The notes under the pieces: model-generated | Told to the model about the DNA's origin: nothing | Database searches by the model: none | The model's input: the letters and a program-made list of their open reading frames with translations, nothing else | In this document: positions 23,934 through 35,824 of the stretch, in pieces | Position numbering within the stretch: the first letter of the stretch is position 1 | Layout: every line of letters begins with the position of its first letter | Assembly (NCBI RefSeq): GCF_904846035.1 | Contig: NZ_CAJGYT010000001.1 | Location: 868,001 to 932,000 of the forward strand | Direction: 5' to 3' | DNA length: 64,000 nt | Source: Psychrobacter aestuarii | GTDB taxonomy: Bacteria > Pseudomonadota > Gammaproteobacteria > Pseudomonadales > Moraxellaceae | Made by a program: the position numbers and the translations under genes

Positions 23934-24251
23934 TTACACAGCGAAGTCTTCGATGTCTTGACCGTTTTCTATCGCGTTCACAAGCCACGTTGGTTTACGA
24001 CCACGACCTGTCCACGTCTCACTTGGGTTTTCAGTGTTGCGGTATTTGATGCTGCGTTTTTTCTCTAGGCTTTGACCTGCCTTTAGAATCTCATCGATGG
24101 TGGTGTTGCATTGTTCAGCGATGGCTTCAAATTGCGTGTACGCGTCATATAGGCGTTGGTCTTGTTTTTTGCTGATCAATTGCTGTGCGTTTTCAGTAAT
24201 GGCGCGCAGTTCATCAACGTTTAAGCTTTCTAGATCGATATTCTTGCTCAT
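23934..24251 (-). CDS. H-NS family nucleoid-associated protein
   Basis: A 105-residue DNA-binding protein of the H-NS/StpA type, expected to bind AT-rich DNA and silence transcription. The N-terminal 55 residues are a helical oligomerisation region (LESLNVDELRAITENAQQLI). The C-terminal domain contains TWTGRGRKPTWL, matching the conserved AT-hook-like loop TxxGRGRxPxW. The ATG at 24251 with AGAGG upstream is preferred over 24296. The long AT-rich upstream region suggests autoregulation. The AT-rich segment at 31.3-34.1 kb is the kind of sequence such a protein would silence. Confidence 0.92.
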   Translation of the reverse strand: MSKNIDLESLNVDELRAITENAQQLISKKQDQRLYDAYTQFEAIAEQCNTTIDEILKAGQSLEKKRSIKYRNTENPSETWTGRGRKPTWLVNAIENGQDIEDFAV

Positions 24252-24777
24252 AATAACCTCTGCTGTTATACATCGTTGTTTTAAATGGGTCGACATGCGC
24301 TTTTATTGTTATTCATCACTGAGCAATTTTATGGTGGCATTGCCTAAGTTTATGGACAGACAGCGCTGATAAACGTCTGACTAAAAGCACGTATCAATCA
24401 TACAGGCATAATGTCAAACCGCGCTTTATGGCCAAAGAACAACAATAAATCATGTAGGTGCAAAATATTAGCATATTAATTTCTATTAATGAACAGATAT
24501 GTTTGTTAAAAACGTTATTATCAGTTTTATTAATCAATAAAAGAAAAACAAAAATAGAATATCTATCTGTCGTTTTTTAGAAAAGAACACCCATTTTATG
24601 ATTTTTCTTTATTTTATAGCCGACATTTTTTTATAAAAACAAGCTATCTTTTTTTTGTACACTTTTTACTTTGACCTTTCAGTAGTCTTTTAAACGGTAC
24701 AACCACCTTGTTTTTAGTGACTTCGTATGGCGGATGGCGGGCTGCATGAACGCATATCTCCCTAAACACTGCGCCAT
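24252..24777 (-). promoter_or_regulatory. AT-rich intergenic region with likely H-NS gene promoter
   Basis: About 530 bases without a credible gene. On minus, TTGACA at 24412-24417 could be a -35 box, with a weak -10 (GATACG, 24390-24395) 16 bases away. Bases 24440-24660 are extremely AT-rich with long A and T runs, consistent with bent DNA and self-binding by H-NS. I see no repeats or ORFs of interest. Confidence 0.4.
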
Positions 24778-24801
24778 AAAAAACCCAGCACAGGGCTGGG
24801 T
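24778..24801 (-). terminator. rho-independent terminator of ssb
   Basis: ACCCAGC (24783-24789) pairs with GCTGGGT (24795-24801). An A-run at 24778-24783 becomes the T-tract on minus, just after the ssb stop. Confidence 0.85.
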
Positions 24802-24833
24802 CTTTGGGTGATACGTCACGGGCAATCTTAGAC

Positions 24834-25415
24834 TTAGAACGGGATATCGTCATCCACAGGCGTGTCTGGCATGGCGTTGTTTGAGCTGCCTTGGCTTGGC
24901 GCTGAAAACGCATTGTTTTGGCTGTTTTGGTTAAAGCTGTTTTGATTGGGGTTGCCAAAGTTGTTTTGACCGCCCTGATTGCTTGGGTTGTTTTGATAGC
25001 CACCTTGGTTTTGCGGCGCATTGTTGTATGGCTGTGGTGCGCTGTTTTGGCTAAAGCCTTGGCTCTGTGGCTGACCTGCGCCCGCGCTGTCGAGCATTTG
25101 CATTTGATTGGCGCGAATCTCAGTGATGTAGCGGTCTTGACCGTTTTGGTCTTGGTATTTACGCGTACGTAGGCTGCCCTCAATATACACCTTGCTACCT
25201 TTACGTAGATACTGCGCCGCCACTTCGGCAAGACGATTGTTCAATACAATACGGTGCCATTCGGTCGCTTCGCGCTTTTCGCCGCTTTGCTTATCTGTCC
25301 ACTGCTCTGAGGTGGCAACCGAGATATTGGTCACCGTACCGCCATTACTAAAGGTTTTGCTATCTGGGTCAGCGCCCAAGTTACCAACGATAATTACTTT
25401 ATTTACACCGCGCAT
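24834..25415 (-). CDS. ssb: single-stranded DNA-binding protein
   Basis: A 193-residue SSB. The OB fold fills residues 1-110 ([60 protein letters not shown]). A Gln/Asn/Gly-rich disordered linker of about 70 residues follows, then the acidic tip DDDIPF that recruits partner proteins. The linker repeats units such as QGGYQNN and QGGQNN. It is read from ATG 25415 with AAGGA upstream, and follows the MFS gene on the same strand with a 98-base gap. The ssb/uvrA neighbourhood is common in gammaproteobacteria, here with an MFS gene between. Confidence 0.97.
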
Positions 25416-27670: not shown

Positions 27671-30580
27671 ATGGCAAATGACCATATTGCAATACGTGGT
27701 GCACGTACGCACAACCTAAAAAATATCGATTTGGACATTCCGCGTGATAAGTTCGTGGTGATAACGGGTCTGTCAGGCTCGGGCAAATCGTCTCTTGCTT
27801 TTGATACCCTCTATGCCGAAGGGCAGCGCCGCTATGTCGAGAGCTTATCGGCGTATGCGCGTCAGTTTTTGTCTCAAATGGAAAAGCCAGAAGTCGATAG
27901 CATCGAGGGGCTGTCCCCCGCCATCGCCATTGAGCAAAAATCAACCAACCACAACCCGCGCTCGACCGTCGGCACGATTACCGAGATTTATGACTATTTG
28001 CGCCTGCTCTATGCGCGTATCGGTACGCCGTATTGCCCTGAGCATGGCGAGCCGATGGTCGCGCAGACCGTCACCGAAATGGTCGATACGGTCATGGCAC
28101 TGCCTGAAGACAGCAAGCTGATGATTCTTGCGCCTGTGGTGCGTGAGCGTAAAGGCGAGCATACCGTGCTGCTGGAGCAGCTGGTCGGACAAGGCTTCGT
28201 GCGCGTGCGTATTGACGGGCACATCTATGATATGGATGAGCTGCCGACGCTTGAGAAAAATAAAAAGCACACGATTGAGGTGGTGATTGACCGCTTTAAA
28301 GTGCGCGATGACTTGGGCAACCGTGTCGCCGAGAGCTTAGAGACTGGCTTGCGCTTGGGTCAAGGCATCGTGACGCTGCACCACATGGACGGTAACCCCA
28401 AAGAAGACGGTAGCGACGACCAAATCCTATCTGCCAAGCACAGCTGCCCTGTCTGTGACCGCGCGGTGTCGGAGCTTGAGCCGCGCCTGTTTAGTTTTAA
28501 CAACCCCTACGGCGCGTGTCCTGCCTGTGATGGTCTGGGCAAACGTCAATACTTTTCGGCAGAAAAGCTGATTACCCACCACGAAAAAAGCCTCAATCAA
28601 GGTGCGATTAATGGTTGGGATAAGCGCCATGCCTATTATTTTGGCTTGCTAAGCACCGTCTGTACCCATTTTGATATTGATATGGATACGCCGTGGCAAA
28701 GTCTGTCTAAAAAGCATCAAGACATCATCATGCACGGCTCGGGCAAAGAAAAAATCAGCTTTAACTTTACCGATGAGCGCGGACGCAAAACCAATAAGAT
28801 TGTGCCCTTTGAAGGTATCCTGCCTTATCTTGAGCGCCGCTACGCAAAAACGCAAAGCAATCTGGTGCGCGATGAGCTGGCAAAATATCTCGCCGACACC
28901 ACCTGTAATGTCTGCGATGGCGCACGTCTGAACGAAATCGCCCGCAATGTGCGCGTTGATGAACGCACCATCGCCGATATCGTCAAAATGTCGATTGGTG
29001 ATGCTGAGCGCTATTACAAAAGCCTGACCATTGAGGGTCATAAAGGCGAGATTGCCGAAAAGATTTTTAAGGAAATCAACGAGCGCCTTAACTTCCTCGT
29101 CAGTGTGGGCTTGGACTATCTGTCGCTGGCGCGCTCTGCCGAAACGCTCTCAGGCGGTGAGGCGCAGCGTATTCGTCTTGCCAGTCAGATTGGCGCAGGT
29201 CTGATGGGCGTCATGTACGTGCTGGATGAGCCGTCTATCGGTCTTCATCAGCGCGACAATGACCGCCTATTAAAGACGCTTACGCGCTTGCGCGACCTCG
29301 GCAATACCGTGCTGGTGGTCGAGCATGACGAAGACGCGATTCGCCAAGCCGACTACATCATCGATATCGGTGTCGGCGCGGGCGTCCATGGCGGGCACAT
29401 CATCGCCCAAGGTACTGAAAAAGACATCATGGCAGAGCCTGAGTCACTGACAGGGCAATATCTGTCAGGCGCGAAAAAAATCGAAGTGCCCAGCATCCGC
29501 CACGACGCCAAAACCATGGAAGTGGTCGCAAAAGGCAAAGCTAAGCCCAAGCAAGTACCTATGAGCATCGAGCTAAAAGGCGCAAACGGCAACAACTTAC
29601 AAAACGTGGATTTGAGCATTCCTGTCGGTGTGATGACCTGCGTTACAGGCGTGTCAGGCTCAGGCAAATCGACCTTGATTAACCGCACCTTGATGCCGCT
29701 CGCCGCGACCCAGCTGAACAATGCCTCGACCCTTATCCCTGAGAGTTACGACAGCATCAGCGGGCTTGAGCACTTGGACAAGATGGTTGATATCGACCAA
29801 AGCCCCATCGGTCGTACCCCGCGCTCGAACCCTGCCACCTACACAGGCGTCTTTACCCCTGTGCGTGAGCTGTTTGCGCAAACCCAAGAAGCCCGTGCAC
29901 GCGGCTATAAGCCAGGGCGCTTTAGCTTTAACGTTAAAGGCGGACGCTGTGAGACCTGTCAGGGTGATGGCTTAATCAAGGTAGAAATGCACTTCTTACC
30001 TGATATGTATGTGCCTTGCGACAGCTGTCATGGCAAGCGCTACAACCGCGAGACGCTCGAAGTACACTATAAAGGCAAAACCATCGCCGATGTGCTCGAG
30101 ATGACCGTTGAGGACGCGACCGAGTTCTTCTCCGCGATTCCTGCCATTCATCGCCGCTTGCAAGCCTTGATGGAAGTCGGTCTGAGCTACATTCGCCTCG
30201 GTCAATCGGCACCGACGCTCTCAGGCGGTGAAGCGCAGCGCGTCAAACTGGCACGCGAGCTGGCAAAACGCGACACAGGACAGACGCTGTATATCTTGGA
30301 TGAGCCGACCACTGGTTTGCACTTCCACGATATCGCCAAGCTGTTGAACATCCTGCACGCGCTACGCGACAAGGGCAATACCATCGTGGTCATCGAGCAC
30401 AACCTTGATGTGATTAAGACTGCCGATTGGGTTATTGACCTCGGTCCTGAGGGCGGTAAAAATGGCGGTATGATTATCGCTGAGGGCACGCCCGAAGACG
30501 TCGCCGACGCTGAAGGCTCACATACGGGCGAGTTTTTAAAGCCGCTATTAGAGCAGCAAGCCGCATTGGCAGCGAGCTAA
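27671..30580 (+). CDS. uvrA: excinuclease ABC subunit UvrA
   Basis: A 969-residue damage-recognition ATPase of nucleotide excision repair, full length. Two ABC modules are present: Walker [10 protein letters not shown] near residue 33 and GVSGSGKST near residue 660, and signatures [16 protein letters not shown] and [16 protein letters not shown]. Zinc-binding modules are CPVCD...CPACDGLG near residue 260 and CETCQGDG...CDSCHGKRY near residue 760. The C-terminus ends [15 protein letters not shown] plus a short tail. A terminator follows at 30594. A degenerate copy of its last 40 codons lies 1 kb downstream. Confidence 0.98.
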
Positions 30581-30593
30581 TCGTTTAAACATT

Positions 30594-30625
30594 AAAAAAA
30601 GCCACTTGTGAGAGTGGCTTTTTTT
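30594..30625. terminator. bidirectional rho-independent terminator after uvrA
   Basis: GCCACT (30601-30606) pairs with AGTGGC (30613-30618), with an A-run before and a T-run after. It is usable by uvrA (plus) and the LysE gene (minus). Confidence 0.9.
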
Positions 30626-30691
30626 GTGGGTAAGGAGTATCAAAAACAACAGTTAAATGTCGTAGGCATCATACGCACTTATACTATAAAC

Positions 30692-31321
30692 TCAGCCCTT
30701 CGCAATCAACCATGCGCCAGCCAGTCCCATAAATGAAGACCCGACGCGGTTAAATTTCTGCCGTGCTCTAGGGCTTTTCAAACGTTTTTGCGCGTAACTC
30801 GCCATAAAGGCATACATCATCATAGCAACAATGGCGCAGCCAAAAATCACCAGACATAGAATCGTAATATCTATCCCTGTTAAACTAGTGACTGGGAAAA
30901 AACTGGGCAATAAGCTGATATAGAATAAAATAACTTTTGGATTACTGATGGAGACCAGAAAACCCGAAACCACACTTTTTAGTCCCTCGTTTTTATTTTT
31001 TAATGTGACATTTTCAGTCATAATTTCACTTGGCACCGTCATCCACATCTTGTACGCCAAGTAAAACAAATAACCTGCCCCTACAAACTTGACTACAGTA
31101 AACAAGGTATTGAAATTGCTTGCCAATGCGCTCAGTCCATAAGCGGAGAACACCATATAAATAGTATCTCCTGCAGCAAGTCCAATGATTAAGGGCAGCG
31201 CTGCCCAAGATCCTTGTGTCATGGCTTTGGCAATAGTAGCAAACACCCCAGGACCCGGCGTCATGATAAATATGAATACAGCAATAATGAAGGTAAATAG
31301 CTGAATGGTGGTGATGGTCAT
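30692..31321 (-). CDS. LysE-family amino acid exporter
   Basis: A 209-residue inner-membrane exporter of the LysE/RhtB family with about six spans. The family signature is FIMTPGPGVFATIAKAMTQG at residues 18-37, followed by LPLIIGLAAGDTIYMVFSAY and a second FLVSISNPKVILFYISLLPS, both characteristic. AGGAC lies four bases before the ATG. The substrate (lysine, threonine, homoserine or other) cannot be read from sequence. The gene is more AT-rich than uvrA and lies between intact uvrA and a decayed uvrA tail, so it may belong to an acquired segment. Confidence 0.93.
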   Translation of the reverse strand: MTITTIQLFTFIIAVFIFIMTPGPGVFATIAKAMTQGSWAALPLIIGLAAGDTIYMVFSAYGLSALASNFNTLFTVVKFVGAGYLFYLAYKMWMTVPSEIMTENVTLKNKNEGLKSVVSGFLVSISNPKVILFYISLLPSFFPVTSLTGIDITILCLVIFGCAIVAMMMYAFMASYAQKRLKSPRARQKFNRVGSSFMGLAGAWLIAKG

Positions 31322-31483
31322 GACAGTCCTTTATATGTACATTAACGCTTAAGTATAATTGATTAATCAAACATATTTCTAGTTCATTATTATTGTTTTA
31401 GAATAACTAGAATAGTTATAGGTTCAAAATTCTTATAATTATCGTAATATAGTTATTATGCGCTATAACATCTCTTTTATCAG

Positions 31484-31603
31484 ATGATTGATCTTTGTCT
31501 TAAATGTAGCGGACTCATCATCGCTGAAGATATGTCTGAGAAGGTGACGGAAGTAAAAGGCTCATATATGGGTAAGTTTTTAAAGTCAATGTTTGTGCAG
31601 TAA
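31484..31603 (+). pseudogene. degenerate uvrA 3'-end remnant
   Basis: Reading frame 2 from 31484 gives MIDLCLKCSGLIIAEDMSEK and then VTEVKGSYMGKFLKSMFVQ before TAA at 31601. The intact UvrA C-terminus reads [20 protein letters not shown] and then [20 protein letters not shown]. The shared residues are IDL, G-x-IIAE, E-x-V, GS-x-x-G-x-FLK, with one small deletion after IDL. At DNA level 31517-31585 aligns without gaps to 30473-30541, with 48 of 69 bases identical by my count, and AGTTTTTAAAG is exact in both. An in-frame stop precedes it at 31466. It has no ribosome binding site and is far too short to work, so it is a fossil of a second uvrA 3' end. Confidence 0.8.
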
Positions 31604-31759
31604 ATCAAAGAAGCAAGCTAATAGTGTTTTTCTGATTTTTCATAAAAGACCACCCTACAGGGAGTAATTTTTTATTTTATAGGGTTCAAAAAATTATGGA
31701 TTCAGTTGATACGTATATACTGAACTTAACCATAACTTAATAAAACTAAAGGAATAATA
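31604..31759 (+). promoter_or_regulatory. AT-rich leader of the nuclease/SEC-C gene
   Basis: Very AT-rich sequence between the uvrA remnant and the next gene. A short inverted stretch (CCACCCTACAGGGAG) is present. AAAGGA lies at 31748-31753 before the ATG at 31760. No clear -35/-10 pair stands out among many AT-rich candidates. Confidence 0.35.
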
Positions 31760-33916
31760 ATGTTCGATAGAGAAAGTCATAGAGACGAAGCAGAAGTTTT
31801 TAGTGATCTAGAATCATTATGTCATTCTAATGGATATTTACATACTATTGCATATTTTTGTTTTAGAGATAATACTGTACGATGTGGTGAAGAAATACAG
31901 AAGGAAGATTTTCTAGAGCAGTATAGTACAGATAGACTATTACGGACTGAGATATCCACATTAATTGGTTTGGCATGTACAGTCAAGTCAAATTTGGAAT
32001 TACCAACTCCTGCTAAAATGCAGGAATACATAGATAAAACGGAATCCTTACTTTTAGAACTTCATCATTCAATGGTTCCTGATATTTCAAATCTATTTAA
32101 GTTAGATACCAATAATCAACTAGATAAAAGCTATAACCCTTTTAATAAAGGAACTTTCTTAAGGGAGCCTATATTTTATGGAGGGGAATCAGCTTATCAC
32201 TTCCAATACAGAGACTTATCGAAGCTAAAGTACAAGAATGATGAAGACTGGATAATAGAAAATAAAGGCTATTCAATAAATGATTTATTCGTTGTTATTG
32301 AATCTATTAGTTCGTTACAGCTTGAAAAAATTAACAGCATACTACCTAATGTTTTGCAAAAAAATTCTGATGAATGGACAGTTTTAGATGCATATATTTT
32401 TACAATAAATGAGGTAGAAGCTAAATTATCCATACCCTTATCGAAACCTTTAATAAAAAAGGTAATTGAGTCTTTTGTATCTATTGATAGCTATGAGTTC
32501 AAAAGACTTGATGATTTCAACCAAAAAAATGCTTTTCCAATAATAAAGATAGATGACAATAAATATCTTCTTTTTCAAAATTATAGTTTACTGGAAGCAT
32601 TATATGAGTCCCCTTTTTTTTGGTTTTGGAATGATAAATCTTACCGTAATACCGCAATGACGAACCGAGGCAACTTTACGGAAGATTTTTCCGTAAGTAG
32701 GCTAAAAAGTGTTTTTGGGAATAATAGAGTTTTTCAAGGTGTCAATATTATTGGAAAAAAAGGAGTAACTTCTGGAGAAATAGATGTTTTAGTATTATTT
32801 GCAAACAGAGCTATTGTTCTACAAGCTAAATCTAAAAAACTTACTCTAGAATCTAGAAAGGGTAATGATTTATCTATAAAAAATGACTTTAAGAAAGCTA
32901 TTCAGGATTCGTATGACCAAGCCTATTTATGCTCTGAACTTTTATTAAGTAAAAGCTATAAACTTGAAGATAAATACGGTCAAAGTATAGATATTTCAAA
33001 TATCGAATTCCAAGAAATATATCCAGTATGTATTGTATCAGATCACTACCCTGCTTTATCTTTTCAAGCTAAACAGTTCTTAAAATATAAAAAAACCGAT
33101 ATAATTAAAGCTCCATTCATTATGGATGTTTTTTTCCTAGATGTTTTTGCTGAAATGCTCAATACACCATTATATTTTTTGAGTTATTTGAATAGAAGAA
33201 CAAACTATTCAGATAGCATTATGGCTACGCATGAAATGACTATTCTTGCATACCATCTGATACATAATTTATGGGTTGATGGTGCAGATTATATACATAT
33301 AGGAAACGATTTTAATACTGTATTAGATATGTCAATGTTAACTAGAAGAGATGGACTGGACTCTATACATACTCCAAAAGGAATACTTACAAAATATCAG
33401 GGTACTACAGTTGGAAAATATCTTTCTGATATCGAAAGGATTAACAATCCAAGTACAGTAGATTTTGGATTCTTACTGCTAAAAATAAATGAACAATCAA
33501 TTCAGCAGGTTAATGAAACTATCGAATTAATTTGTAGTAAAAGCTTAGTAGATGGTAAAAATCATGACTTTACAATTGGATTTAAAAATGGTGAAGGTTT
33601 AACAATTCATTGCAACTATAATGATTACAATACTGCTAAAGAAAAATTAGAAGACCATGCTAGAAAAAGAAAATACTATACGAAGTCTAAAAAATGGCAT
33701 GCTATCTGTATTGAACCTAGTACAAAAAATATTAAATTTGGTATGAGTCTCGACTTTCCTTGGAAGTATTCGAAAGAGATGGAGCAAGCTACTTCTCGCA
33801 TGGTAAAACCTTTATCAACTTTCAATTCTAAAACGAAAATTATGCCTAAAAAAATAGGGAGAAACGAACAGTGCCCTTGTGGCAGTAGAAAAAAATATAA
33901 GAAGTGTTGTTTATAA
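31760..33916 (+). CDS. putative PD-(D/E)XK (NERD-like) nuclease with C-terminal SEC-C zinc motif
   Basis: A 718-residue protein of no named family. Residues 303-390 match the layout of NERD/PD-(D/E)XK nucleases: a helix with Glu308 (GNFTEDF), a strand with Asp342 (SGEIDVLVLF), then IVLQAKSKK with Gln355-x-Lys357 in place of the usual E-x-K, then a helix DSYDQAYLC. Residues 696-718 form a SEC-C motif with Cys705, Cys707, Cys716 and Cys717 (CPCGSRKKYKKCC), which binds zinc and often serves as a recruitment tag. The first 300 residues are helical and unknown. The gene is strongly AT-rich (16 G/C in the 60 bases from 32281), unlike its neighbours, indicating horizontal acquisition. A defence or nucleic-acid-processing role is inference. 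Confidence 0.8.
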   Translation: MFDRESHRDEAEVFSDLESLCHSNGYLHTIAYFCFRDNTVRCGEEIQKEDFLEQYSTDRLLRTEISTLIGLACTVKSNLELPTPAKMQEYIDKTESLLLELHHSMVPDISNLFKLDTNNQLDKSYNPFNKGTFLREPIFYGGESAYHFQYRDLSKLKYKNDEDWIIENKGYSINDLFVVIESISSLQLEKINSILPNVLQKNSDEWTVLDAYIFTINEVEAKLSIPLSKPLIKKVIESFVSIDSYEFKRLDDFNQKNAFPIIKIDDNKYLLFQNYSLLEALYESPFFWFWNDKSYRNTAMTNRGNFTEDFSVSRLKSVFGNNRVFQGVNIIGKKGVTSGEIDVLVLFANRAIVLQAKSKKLTLESRKGNDLSIKNDFKKAIQDSYDQAYLCSELLLSKSYKLEDKYGQSIDISNIEFQEIYPVCIVSDHYPALSFQAKQFLKYKKTDIIKAPFIMDVFFLDVFAEMLNTPLYFLSYLNRRTNYSDSIMATHEMTILAYHLIHNLWVDGADYIHIGNDFNTVLDMSMLTRRDGLDSIHTPKGILTKYQGTTVGKYLSDIERINNPSTVDFGFLLLKINEQSIQQVNETIELICSKSLVDGKNHDFTIGFKNGEGLTIHCNYNDYNTAKEKLEDHARKRKYYTKSKKWHAICIEPSTKNIKFGMSLDFPWKYSKEMEQATSRMVKPLSTFNSKTKIMPKKIGRNEQCPCGSRKKYKKCCL

Positions 33917-33994
33917 CTTTGCAAATTTTGATTAAATTCATATTAGACTTTCTTTATATAGTAGTTATCCCTACACAAGGTTTAGCACTGAGTA

Positions 33995-34074
33995 CGGTGG
34001 CTGTTATCCTCGATTGAAGTGATTTAGTTAAGGGCAGTATCAAAATGAGACGATATGAACACTATTAGCCACCG
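33995..34074. repeat. 80-bp segment bounded by 8-bp inverted repeats
   Basis: CGGTGGCT at 33995-34002 and its exact complement AGCCACCG at 34067-34074 bracket about 64 bases with no gene. It sits just after the AT-rich nuclease gene and could be a small non-autonomous element or an insertion-sequence end. A target-site duplication is not evident. The gap to the next gene otherwise holds nothing I recognise. Confidence 0.35.
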
Positions 34075-34126
34075 CTTTTATGGTTAACCAAAATAGGAGT
34101 GGAAGCGCCATTAACACTCTTAATAC

Positions 34127-34408
34127 TTAAATAAATTCCCGCTCAACCTTCACCATTCTGGCGTCCACGCCATGCTCCAGCTTTTCTTCAATTTGGCTGC
34201 ACTGTGATTCGATATCGCGCTTTGACAGCCCAATGATGACAAACGTCCATTCGCTCGCCTCATGGCGGTCGCGCTCGCCGCTTTCACAGACCGCGACGCT
34301 TGGGGTATTGCCAAAACGCGCGTGTAAGCCGCCCATACGCTGTCGCTTTTCTTTGAGCGAGCGACAGCCGATTAAGGAAAAGGTAATGGTTAAGATGGCG
34401 ATGTGCAT
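34127..34408 (-). CDS. DUF503 family protein (YlxP-like)
   Basis: A 93-residue conserved protein of the DUF503/YlxP family. The opening (IAILTITFSLIGCRSLKEKR), the central VAVCESGERDRHEASEWTFV and the final helix QIEEKLEHGVDARMVKVERE follow the family pattern, with the SLKEKR motif intact. AAGGA lies five bases before the ATG. The function is uncertain; in firmicutes ylxP lies near infB and rbfA, suggesting ribosome-related work. Here it is isolated, marking the return to normal base composition after the AT-rich segment. Confidence 0.88.
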   Translation of the reverse strand: MHIAILTITFSLIGCRSLKEKRQRMGGLHARFGNTPSVAVCESGERDRHEASEWTFVIIGLSKRDIESQCSQIEEKLEHGVDARMVKVEREFI

Positions 34409-34581: not shown

Positions 34582-35370
34582 ATGACCTCTATCAGCTATG
34601 TGCAGCAGCAGCACATCACCCGCTTGTGCGTACGCTGCGGACTCCTCTTGATGCAGTATGGCGCTGAGTCTGCCGTGGTGGTGGACTTAACCAAGCGCTT
34701 AGGGCTGGCGCTCGGCATGAACAGTGTGGAATGTTCGCTGAATTTTAATGCCATCACCTTGACCACCATCTGTAGCGAGCGCTGTATCACCACCACCCGC
34801 GATACGGTCAATCAAAGCATCAATGTGCATTTGCTGGTGCAGATTCAGCAGATTGTCAATAAGACTGAGGCGACGACTGACACGCCAGCACTGGTGGCGC
34901 AGACGACTGAGGCGTTCGATGCGCTGGATAAGGCGGTGTATCCGCCGTGGCTCGTGGGGATATTCGTGGGGGCGTCGTGCGCGGCGTTTGCCAATTTGCA
35001 TGGCGGCAGTTGGGCAATTACGGCGGTGACGTTCGTCGCGGGGATGGTGGCGATGCTGACGCGCATTTATCTTGCCAAGCATCACTTTAACCCCTTTATT
35101 ACGGTCATTATCACTGCATTTATCGCCTCGGTGATTGGTGCGACGACGTATTATTTTGATATTGGTAATAACGCCGATATTGCGGTGGCGTCCAGTGTGC
35201 TGCTGCTCGTGCCCAGCTTTCCGCTGATTAATTCGCTGTCCGATATTTTAAAGGGCTATCTAAATATTGGCATTGGGCGCGCGGTATTCACCTATATGCT
35301 GACGCTGTCGGCGTGTGTGGGCATTGTGATGGCGCTGATTGTGCTGCGTATTCAGCATTGGGGGTTTTAG
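34582..35370 (+). CDS. threonine/serine exporter N-terminal subunit, YjjP-like
   Basis: A 262-residue protein of the ThrE/DUF1212 family. A cytosolic first part (RLCVRCGLLLMQYGAESAVV, then NSVECSLNFNAITLTT) is followed by about five spans from residue 115 (PPWLVGIFVGASCAAFANLH) to the C-terminus. The GAES motif and the late LLVPSFPLINSLSDILKGY are characteristic. In E. coli the homologue YjjP works with YjjB as a dicarboxylate (succinate) exporter; in corynebacteria the two halves are fused as ThrE. The second half follows two bases downstream. Substrate here is not known. Confidence 0.9.
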   Translation: MTSISYVQQQHITRLCVRCGLLLMQYGAESAVVVDLTKRLGLALGMNSVECSLNFNAITLTTICSERCITTTRDTVNQSINVHLLVQIQQIVNKTEATTDTPALVAQTTEAFDALDKAVYPPWLVGIFVGASCAAFANLHGGSWAITAVTFVAGMVAMLTRIYLAKHHFNPFITVIITAFIASVIGATTYYFDIGNNADIAVASSVLLLVPSFPLINSLSDILKGYLNIGIGRAVFTYMLTLSACVGIVMALIVLRIQHWGF

Positions 35371-35371
35371 C

Positions 35372-35824
35372 ATGTGGTTTGTTGAAACGGTCGTGCTTTC
35401 GTGCATCATTACGCTTGGCTGGACGCTGATGTTCACTGTGCCCAAGCGCTATATTTTGCCGTGTTTGTTGATGACGGCATTTGGTTTTGGGCTAAAGACG
35501 GCGCTGGTGTATTACGAGGTGCATTTGGTGATTGCGAGCTTTTTTGGTGCGATGCTCGCCAGCTTTTTGGGGGTGTATTTTTCCAAAAAATACACTTTAA
35601 CGCCCAAGGCGCTCATCTCGCCCAGCGTGATTTGTATGATGCCCGGTATTGCCGCGTATAAGGCGATGGTAAGTATGGTGCAGATTGGCTACTTTGGCTA
35701 TTCGGACGCGCTGTTTAGCCAGATGATGGGCTATCTGTTTGAGGCGCTGTTTGTCACTTCCGCCTTGGTGCTCGGTTTGTCCATTCCTGGATTGCTGTTT
35801 TATCGCAGACGGGCGATTGTCTGA
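35372..35824 (+). CDS. threonine/serine exporter C-terminal subunit, YjjB-like
   Basis: A 150-residue membrane protein of the ThrE_2/DUF3815 family with four or five spans. Typical segments are TLMFTVPKRYILPCLLMTAF, IASFFGAMLASFLGVYFSKK and PKALISPSVICMMPGIAAYK. The ATG at 35372 follows the YjjP-like stop by one base, so the pair is coupled and presumably forms one transporter. An upstream in-frame codon at 35339 lies inside the previous gene and is not used. Confidence 0.9.
   Translation: MWFVETVVLSCIITLGWTLMFTVPKRYILPCLLMTAFGFGLKTALVYYEVHLVIASFFGAMLASFLGVYFSKKYTLTPKALISPSVICMMPGIAAYKAMVSMVQIGYFGYSDALFSQMMGYLFEALFVTSALVLGLSIPGLLFYRRRAIV

Follow-up and report, generated by a model that had tools for sequence, protein, structure and literature searches.

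An AT-rich gene in a variable interval of Psychrobacter

In a 64,000-nucleotide stretch of Psychrobacter aestuarii DNA (hereafter, the window; contig NZ_CAJGYT010000001.1, positions 868,001 to 932,000), one AT-rich gene encodes a protein that joins a nuclease-like core to a C-terminal SEC-C motif, which raises the question of what such a protein does for its host. The ORF begins with an ATG and spans 31760–33916 on the forward strand (718 aa). Based on the ORF, Pfam matches, and a structure model, we describe its product as a stand-alone protein made up of a helical region, a winged-helix-like segment, a NERD-type PD-QxK nuclease, and a SEC-C motif. The analyses below suggest that it is probably an immune nuclease that works without a recognised NTPase or partner gene and that travels as a lone gene in defence hotspots, on plasmids, and in satellites.

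As the initial annotation had pointed out, the gene is far poorer in GC than its surroundings, with values of 0.295–0.339 in 1-kb windows over the gene versus 0.49–0.55 in three windows on each side. The same tendency is seen across the family, in which the gene has a lower GC content than its flanks at 73 of 79 loci. A search of the P. aestuarii genome with the 718-aa protein found no second copy. A pattern scan of 31300–34200 found no excess of promoter-like sites (8 versus a shuffle mean of 16) and no terminator. Elsewhere in the window, there is a second AT-rich dip at 24001–25000 (GC 0.396), with ORFs at 24644–25231 and 24834–25415.

The gene lies in a variable interval that is bordered on the left by uvrA (27671–30580, forward strand; assigned by ORF and synteny, with UvrA Pfam domains on the syntenic copy at locus L021). 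Behind uvrA, we read by eye a terminator-like hairpin with a T run (30600–30626, forward strand), beyond which the cargo lies. The other genes nearby are ORFs named by eye: a LysE-like exporter gene (30692–31321, reverse strand), which is part of the variable cargo; a DUF503-like gene (34127–34408, reverse strand), which forms the right border as judged by synteny; and a ThrE-like exporter pair (34582–35370 and 35339–35824, together 34582–35824, forward strand), the first gene of which served as the anchor of our genus survey. The LysE-like gene is 94% identical in another Psychrobacter genome (G001).

Domain architecture and catalytic site

Two Pfam families match the protein. The NERD match (PF08378; residues 304–399) is marginal, with an E value of 1.3e-4 and 22.9 bits against a gathering cut-off of 22.1, and the orthologue in genome G029 scores 20.0, below that cut-off. 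The SEC-C match (PF02810; residues 701–717) has an E value of 2.7e-7 and 30.8 bits against a cut-off of 20.4. No Pfam family exceeds its cut-off on the N-terminal 300 residues, and no NCBIfam family reaches its cut-off on the 718-aa protein.

To assess conservation, we aligned the protein with the best 80 of 180 relatives (from 244 pattern matches in a scan of species genomes) and with relatives from 10 viral contigs. The resulting alignment (A2) holds the window sequence plus 86 of the 90 loci L021–L110 (87 rows, 84 distinct); L031 and L107, whose frame was broken in the reading used, and L103 were removed individually, and L090 (548 aa) on account of its length. The putative catalytic residues E308 (32681–32683; helix A), D342 (32783–32785; strand 2), and Q355 and K357 of the Q355-A356-K357 motif (32822–32830; strand 3), all encoded on the forward strand as are the segments below, stand where the initial annotation had placed them and are identical in 87/87 rows. 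Equally invariant are R303, G304, G368, D376, F377, and Q387 around the core, as well as E64, H102, R135, E136, and Y140 in the N-terminal helical region (residues 1–170; 31760–32269), which was delimited from alignment columns and modelled secondary structure. The core (residues 296–426; 32645–33037) is followed by a mostly helical stretch and then a beta-beta-alpha-beta-beta unit at 602–665 (residues 427–680 in all; 33038–33799; alignment and model). After a low-confidence linker at 689–696 comes the SEC-C motif (33860–33910), seen in the model as well as by Pfam. Its cysteines C705, C707, and C716 are each retained in 79 of the 87 rows, while the remaining eight rows have no cysteine tail in the frame read. 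The catalytic and SEC-C residues are thus kept more widely than expected by chance, and the C-terminal motif of the initial annotation is well supported.

The initial annotation had also read the glutamine at position 355, where the canonical motif has glutamate, as a sign of altered metal binding or lost cleavage, which our analyses do not support. The same PD-QxK site is found in EcoKMrr and MspJI. In the excerpted text of an EcoSal Plus review, EcoKMrr is described as a winged helix fused to a PD-QxK nuclease, with no in vitro activity described there, and MspJI is described as cleaving in vitro (PMC12707154); excerpts of a Frontiers paper name the Mrr catalytic domain PD-QXK (PMC11037411). 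Because Q355 is invariant along with E308, D342, and K357, and given the precedent of EcoKMrr and MspJI, we regard it as part of a known working configuration, and we rejected loss of catalysis through Q355. It is therefore extremely unlikely that the substitution marks a PD-(D/E)XK protein that has lost catalysis and acts by binding nucleic acid. Invariance of the site across phyla argues, at the level of sequence, for a working enzyme.

Predicted structure

The AlphaFold model built from alignment A2 has a mean pLDDT of 91.3 and a pTM of 0.89. In the model, residues 296–426 form a helix, three strands, a helix, and a strand (H296–319, E324–331, E337–347, E350–357, H370–395, and E419–426), which is the alpha-beta-beta-beta-alpha-beta order of the PD-(D/E)XK superfamily. 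The first helix carries E308, the second strand D342, and the third strand both Q355 and K357, so that the acidic residue and the lysine are predicted on strands 2 and 3 as in that superfamily.

Searches with the whole model place one defence protein first. In Foldseek against the PDB, the sole match below 0.001 is Upx (“Gao Upx,” PDB 9wuf; E 1.3e-4, probability 1.00), which is also the best VIA match (Z 11.7, 409 residues aligned at 4.6 Å). The next nuclease matches in VIA are Nt.BspD6I (10.2), Can2 (9.1), and McrBC (8.1). Those below Z 8, including FokI (7.9, rmsd 10.9 Å), Card1 (7.7), HamA (6.5), and NucC (6.4), may reflect common arrangements only, and a family missing from the VIA lists should not be taken as evidence against it. 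The aligned ranges are centred on the core and often start near residue 150. No match at E ≤ 0.001 was found in the viral structure library. Altogether, the fold expected by the initial annotation emerges from structure prediction, and the modelled fold and active site point to a nuclease that is closest to restriction-type DNases.

The N-terminal 298 residues, modelled alone, reach a pLDDT of 91.0. The initial annotation had found nothing that matches this part; this stands for Pfam families, but structure searches rank Upx first, weakly (Foldseek E 0.13; VIA Z 8.4, 230 residues aligned at 6.8 Å). Within it, residues 205–272 (32372–32575) have a winged-helix topology by eye (helices 209–212, 216–222, and 229–237; strands 260–263 and 268–270), but the structural matches that would back this reading (Z 5.7 or lower) do not rise above noise.

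Upx resembles our protein in being its best fold match, a single large protein, and found in a defence context. The family could thus be a diverged or shortened Upx branch with the same helical region and PD-(D/E)XK arrangement instead of an independent family. We consider this unlikely. Upx has 1212 residues compared to 718 here, a search of PDB sequences with the 87-row profile recovered no Upx chain up to E 10, and PADLOC 2.0.0 gave no Upx match. The placements also conflict: the N-terminal part aligns to Upx 761–1115, while the whole model aligns to Upx 32–871, so common ancestry or a shared domain order with Upx is not established. For the mechanism of Upx, we found no publication, only mentions in the accessible parts of surveys.

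Occurrence, mobility, and phylogeny

The gene is rare and scattered. Among 398 genomes sampled across the phylum, five carry it at E 1e-20, its own included and one with an internal stop. In the genus, nine of 105 genomes have a match, which is full-length in four: the P. aestuarii genome itself, G060 (86%), G029 (82%), and Psychrobacter immobilis G024 (60%). The other five comprise one copy split over two contig ends (G058), one distant relative (G085), and three matches to the SEC-C region only. Counting the split copy as present, 100 of the 105 genomes have no full-length match. Plasmids also carry the gene, with matches in 37 of 72,556 records (29 over ≥80% of the protein), 19 of which are Agrobacterium and apparently mostly one plasmid. 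In one Salmonella plasmid (CP053577; L018:10001–12078), we found a broken, unannotated copy in two tblastn pieces.

We rejected the idea that this is a prophage gene, as none of 50,697 phage records matches; ten viral contigs do match, so some copies may lie in prophages. Separately, two of 147 proteins adjacent to family members match the phage terminase GpA, which likewise suggests that some copies may lie in prophages.

Family members are found under eight phylum labels. In a tree made by a quick method and containing two long rows (L096 and L106), the 26-row clade that holds the window sequence mixes Pseudomonadota, Bacteroidota, Cyanobacteriota, Nitrospinota, and Thermodesulfobacteriota. 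On this tree, the eight labels require 13 changes, where at least 7 would be needed and shuffled labels average 14.9, with none of 200 shuffles going as low. The labels were taken from record titles, some contigs in bins may be foreign, and a count above one change does not in itself prove transfer. The phyla are therefore mixed on the tree but not random. Rare, scattered, and also on plasmids, the gene behaves like mobile immune cargo.

A chromosomal hotspot in Psychrobacter

The gene occupies the uvrA–DUF503 interval in the window and in G060 and G029. We surveyed this interval across the genus. A thrE match was present in 83 other genomes, of which 69 were fetched; 13 unresolved cases were dropped, which left 56 intervals. 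In those where the DUF503-like gene went undetected, thrE was used as the border. The resolved intervals range from 0.6 to 8.2 kb (median 2.7 kb), have a median GC of 0.345 versus 0.448 outside, and hold cargo that differs from species to species. AT-rich variable cargo of this kind is seen at 30581–34126 of the window and at loci L141–L143, L147–L149, and L153–L214. In the closest genome by neighbouring gene (G071, 97%), a KAP NTPase sits in the slot.

Defence-linked families are present in at least 27 of the 56 intervals, a lower bound because families were named from representative cargo and extended by BLAST clusters; with the window, the count is 28/57, and without the family under study it is 25. 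They include KAP NTPase (13, two of them held as two ORFs), PDDEXK_4 (5), NACHT (2), and the family under study (2), along with one each of GmrSD, AbiH, AIPR/AbiU, RelA_SpoT, and PRTase-CE with NADAR, of which KAP and RelA_SpoT have weaker links to defence than the others. Cargo that is not defence-linked is also common, such as an M48 peptidase (13/56) and the LysE-like exporter (6/56). Three further cargo proteins, of 369 aa (L153), 457 aa (L212), and 314 aa (a neighbour of PDDEXK_4 at L149), are candidates that drew neither a Pfam family at E 0.01 nor a PADLOC model at E 0.001. A literature search combining Psychrobacter, defence-system hotspots, and phage returned no publication, and this hotspot is apparently undescribed.

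The position behind uvrA, together with the repair-nuclease folds of EndoMS 5gke (Z 7.2) and 2vld (Z 7.0) among the VIA matches to the core, could also point to a chromosomal nuclease for repair or DNA processing whose place in variable regions is incidental. However, a repair role is at odds with the scarcity of the gene in the genus, and the P. immobilis copy is found at another place, immediately after a valS-like ORF (named by eye), which indicates that the family came into the genus at two or more places. uvrA is only the hotspot border, and we consider a repair enzyme very improbable.

Escherichia coli satellites, plasmids, and neighbouring genes

A DNA search in E. coli, run with the broken Salmonella plasmid copy, found full-length matches in 2 of 5,426 genomes, which is a lower bound because the search was by DNA. 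In both (GD33 and A20), the gene lies between psu (phage polarity suppression) and the integrase of an element at ssrA that we call P4-like from its annotated genes. The two proteins are 99.9% identical, so we count them as one event. According to the accessible text of Rousset et al. 2022 (PMC9122126), the psu–int locus is an anti-phage hotspot, where the systems differ from one inspected element to the next and include some validated against phage; the main text contains neither “SEC-C” nor “NERD.” The family is thus placed in defence hotspots in both settings, the uvrA–DUF503 interval of Psychrobacter and the psu–int locus of E. coli.

Seven more E. coli genomes match over 58 bases only. 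One of them, EcPF16, encodes a full-length relative (41% identity) in an element that is not P4-like and that includes conjugation genes, a HigA antitoxin, a PIN-domain protein, a 778-aa SEC-C protein, and two DUF262 proteins. On plasmids, the annotated neighbourhoods include type I RM genes, AbiEii, a PDDEXK nuclease, an abortive infection family protein, and integrases, and they also hold ordinary metabolic and efflux genes.

We then compared flanking proteins across the family (147 proteins from 79 readable of 80 loci; the L090 protein among them is the trailing piece of a broken family copy). No Pfam family occurs more than twice among them, and the families listed (25 of 122) include metabolic and mobile-element genes, e.g., ribonucleotide reductase and aminotransferases. 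With PADLOC at E ≤ 1e-10, a crude tally that counts models and not proteins, the 147 adjacent proteins drew 126 models, among them SduA, PifA, SoFic, AbiEi, Drt4, Drt6, QatD, and type I specificity subunits. Proteins at 6.5–10 kb drew 109 models over 113 proteins. As a control, recA regions (not random accessory genes) drew 10 models over 147 proteins from 38 of 40 genomes, with genes sampled across each region instead of immediate neighbours; these look like cross-matches of housekeeping proteins. There was no gradient of defence genes between adjacent proteins and those at 6.5–10 kb, and this level enrichment suggests an accessory or defence-rich region rather than a dedicated partner.

A conserved operon partner was considered and rejected, given that the largest recurrent neighbour cluster comprises 2 of 147 proteins and that several pairs come from near-duplicate loci. 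The EcPF16 arrangement, a family member followed by the 778-aa SEC-C protein, recurs at only one other of 104 loci searched at E 1e-30 (L062, 27%). A YecA-type SEC-C protein directly after a family member was thus seen twice. Since no NTPase or partner is recognised, the protein would act alone.

SEC-C tails dock on ribosomes or SecB. A translation-linked factor could therefore be imagined, in which SEC-C docks on the ribosome or a chaperone and the substrate of the nuclease is RNA, or is DNA at transcription–translation sites. The tail does match the SecA and YchJ tails in the PDB with its cysteines mostly retained, there are weak RNase matches to tRNA splicing endonuclease (TSEN; Foldseek E 0.66–2.0) and RnlA (E 1.1–1.5, 87-row profile against PDB sequences), and the P. 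immobilis copy follows a valS-like ORF. We nevertheless find this quite unlikely: eight rows do without the cysteine tail in the frame read, the better structural matches are mostly restriction-type DNases, and none of the 25 neighbour Pfam families listed (of 122) is a recurrent translation gene, the one tRNA synthetase being 1 of 147 proteins.

Comparison with known systems

An immune nuclease of the kind we favour has partial counterparts. Like the family, EcoKMrr and MspJI share the PD-QxK site, and Mrr has a winged helix N-terminal to its nuclease, as far as the accessible texts describe it. The family differs in its long additional helical N-terminus, its C-terminal domain, and its SEC-C tail. 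Mrr_cat is absent among Pfam matches to E 1, and no modification dependence is known for the family, unlike these type IV enzymes.

Mokosh systems need a helicase. No helicase domain was found by Pfam in the 718-aa protein, and both flanking genes are on the other strand. In the available excerpts, NERD (PF08378) is listed for Mokosh type I and Nhi-like systems (PMC10952713) and for TALON systems (PMC12458937). In contrast to these, the family has no helicase or partner gene, and its NERD domain lies mid-protein with the SEC-C tail after it.

PADLOC 2.0.0 has no whole-length match to the protein. The best match is PDC-S12, but it covers only the SEC-C tail (residues 679–718 of 718), and there is a weak match to a stretch of a Cas6 model (E 0.0025). 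A more distant relative is an 804-aa NERD–SEC-C protein from Psychrobacter (L006), which shares the nuclease-to-SEC-C half (24% over 260–718). It has ESK (E-x-K) where the family has Q-x-K, and L008 also has E-x-K. Neither L006 nor the “YecA family” SEC-C proteins (the 778-aa protein of EcPF16 and L008) have a BLAST match to the N-terminus of the family. Proteins of a wider NERD/SEC-C group (778–804 aa) were seen at L244:5914–10774 (EcPF16), L062:12455–14716, L006, L008, and L009. Literature searches found no publication that joins a NERD domain, SEC-C, and defense, although a prior listing in DefenseFinder or supplementary tables is possible, and none on the SEC-C motif and anti-phage activity.

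Proposed function and implications

Whether in the chromosomal hotspot, in that of a P4-like satellite, or on plasmids, the context is that of immune cargo, and it is from this context that we infer a role in defence. The initial annotation had proposed a single-gene defence or quality-control factor; the single-gene, horizontally moving, and defence-associated part of this agrees with our results, but quality control found no positive evidence. Nor are the homologs confined to vertically inherited housekeeping contexts, the outcome that would have spoken against a defence factor, as they are rare, plasmid-borne, and placed in hotspots.

Based on these analyses, a mechanism can be outlined. 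The helical and winged-helix-like N-terminal 300 residues would serve as the likely reader, recognising some trait of the invading DNA or a sign of infection. The zinc-type SEC-C tail, a likely dock, may attach the protein to a protein or nucleic-acid partner. By analogy with Mrr, MspJI, and McrBC-type enzymes, whose site and fold it resembles, the protein would cleave DNA. The outcome would be restriction of phage or competing mobile DNA, either by direct degradation or by suicide. A more specific version, which would amount to a new architecture and which we regard as very doubtful, holds that SEC-C, known from SecA, YecA, and YchJ, links the PD-QxK nuclease with the machinery of translation or secretion; invading genomes would then be cut at the sites where their first genes are expressed.

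If protective, the family would represent a single-gene immune nuclease of ~2.2 kb that ranges from Psychrobacter to Bacteroidota, cyanobacteria, and the P4-like satellites of E. coli, and a protein that combines NERD with SEC-C would gain a defined role. In Psychrobacter, the uvrA–DUF503 hotspot holds further candidates.
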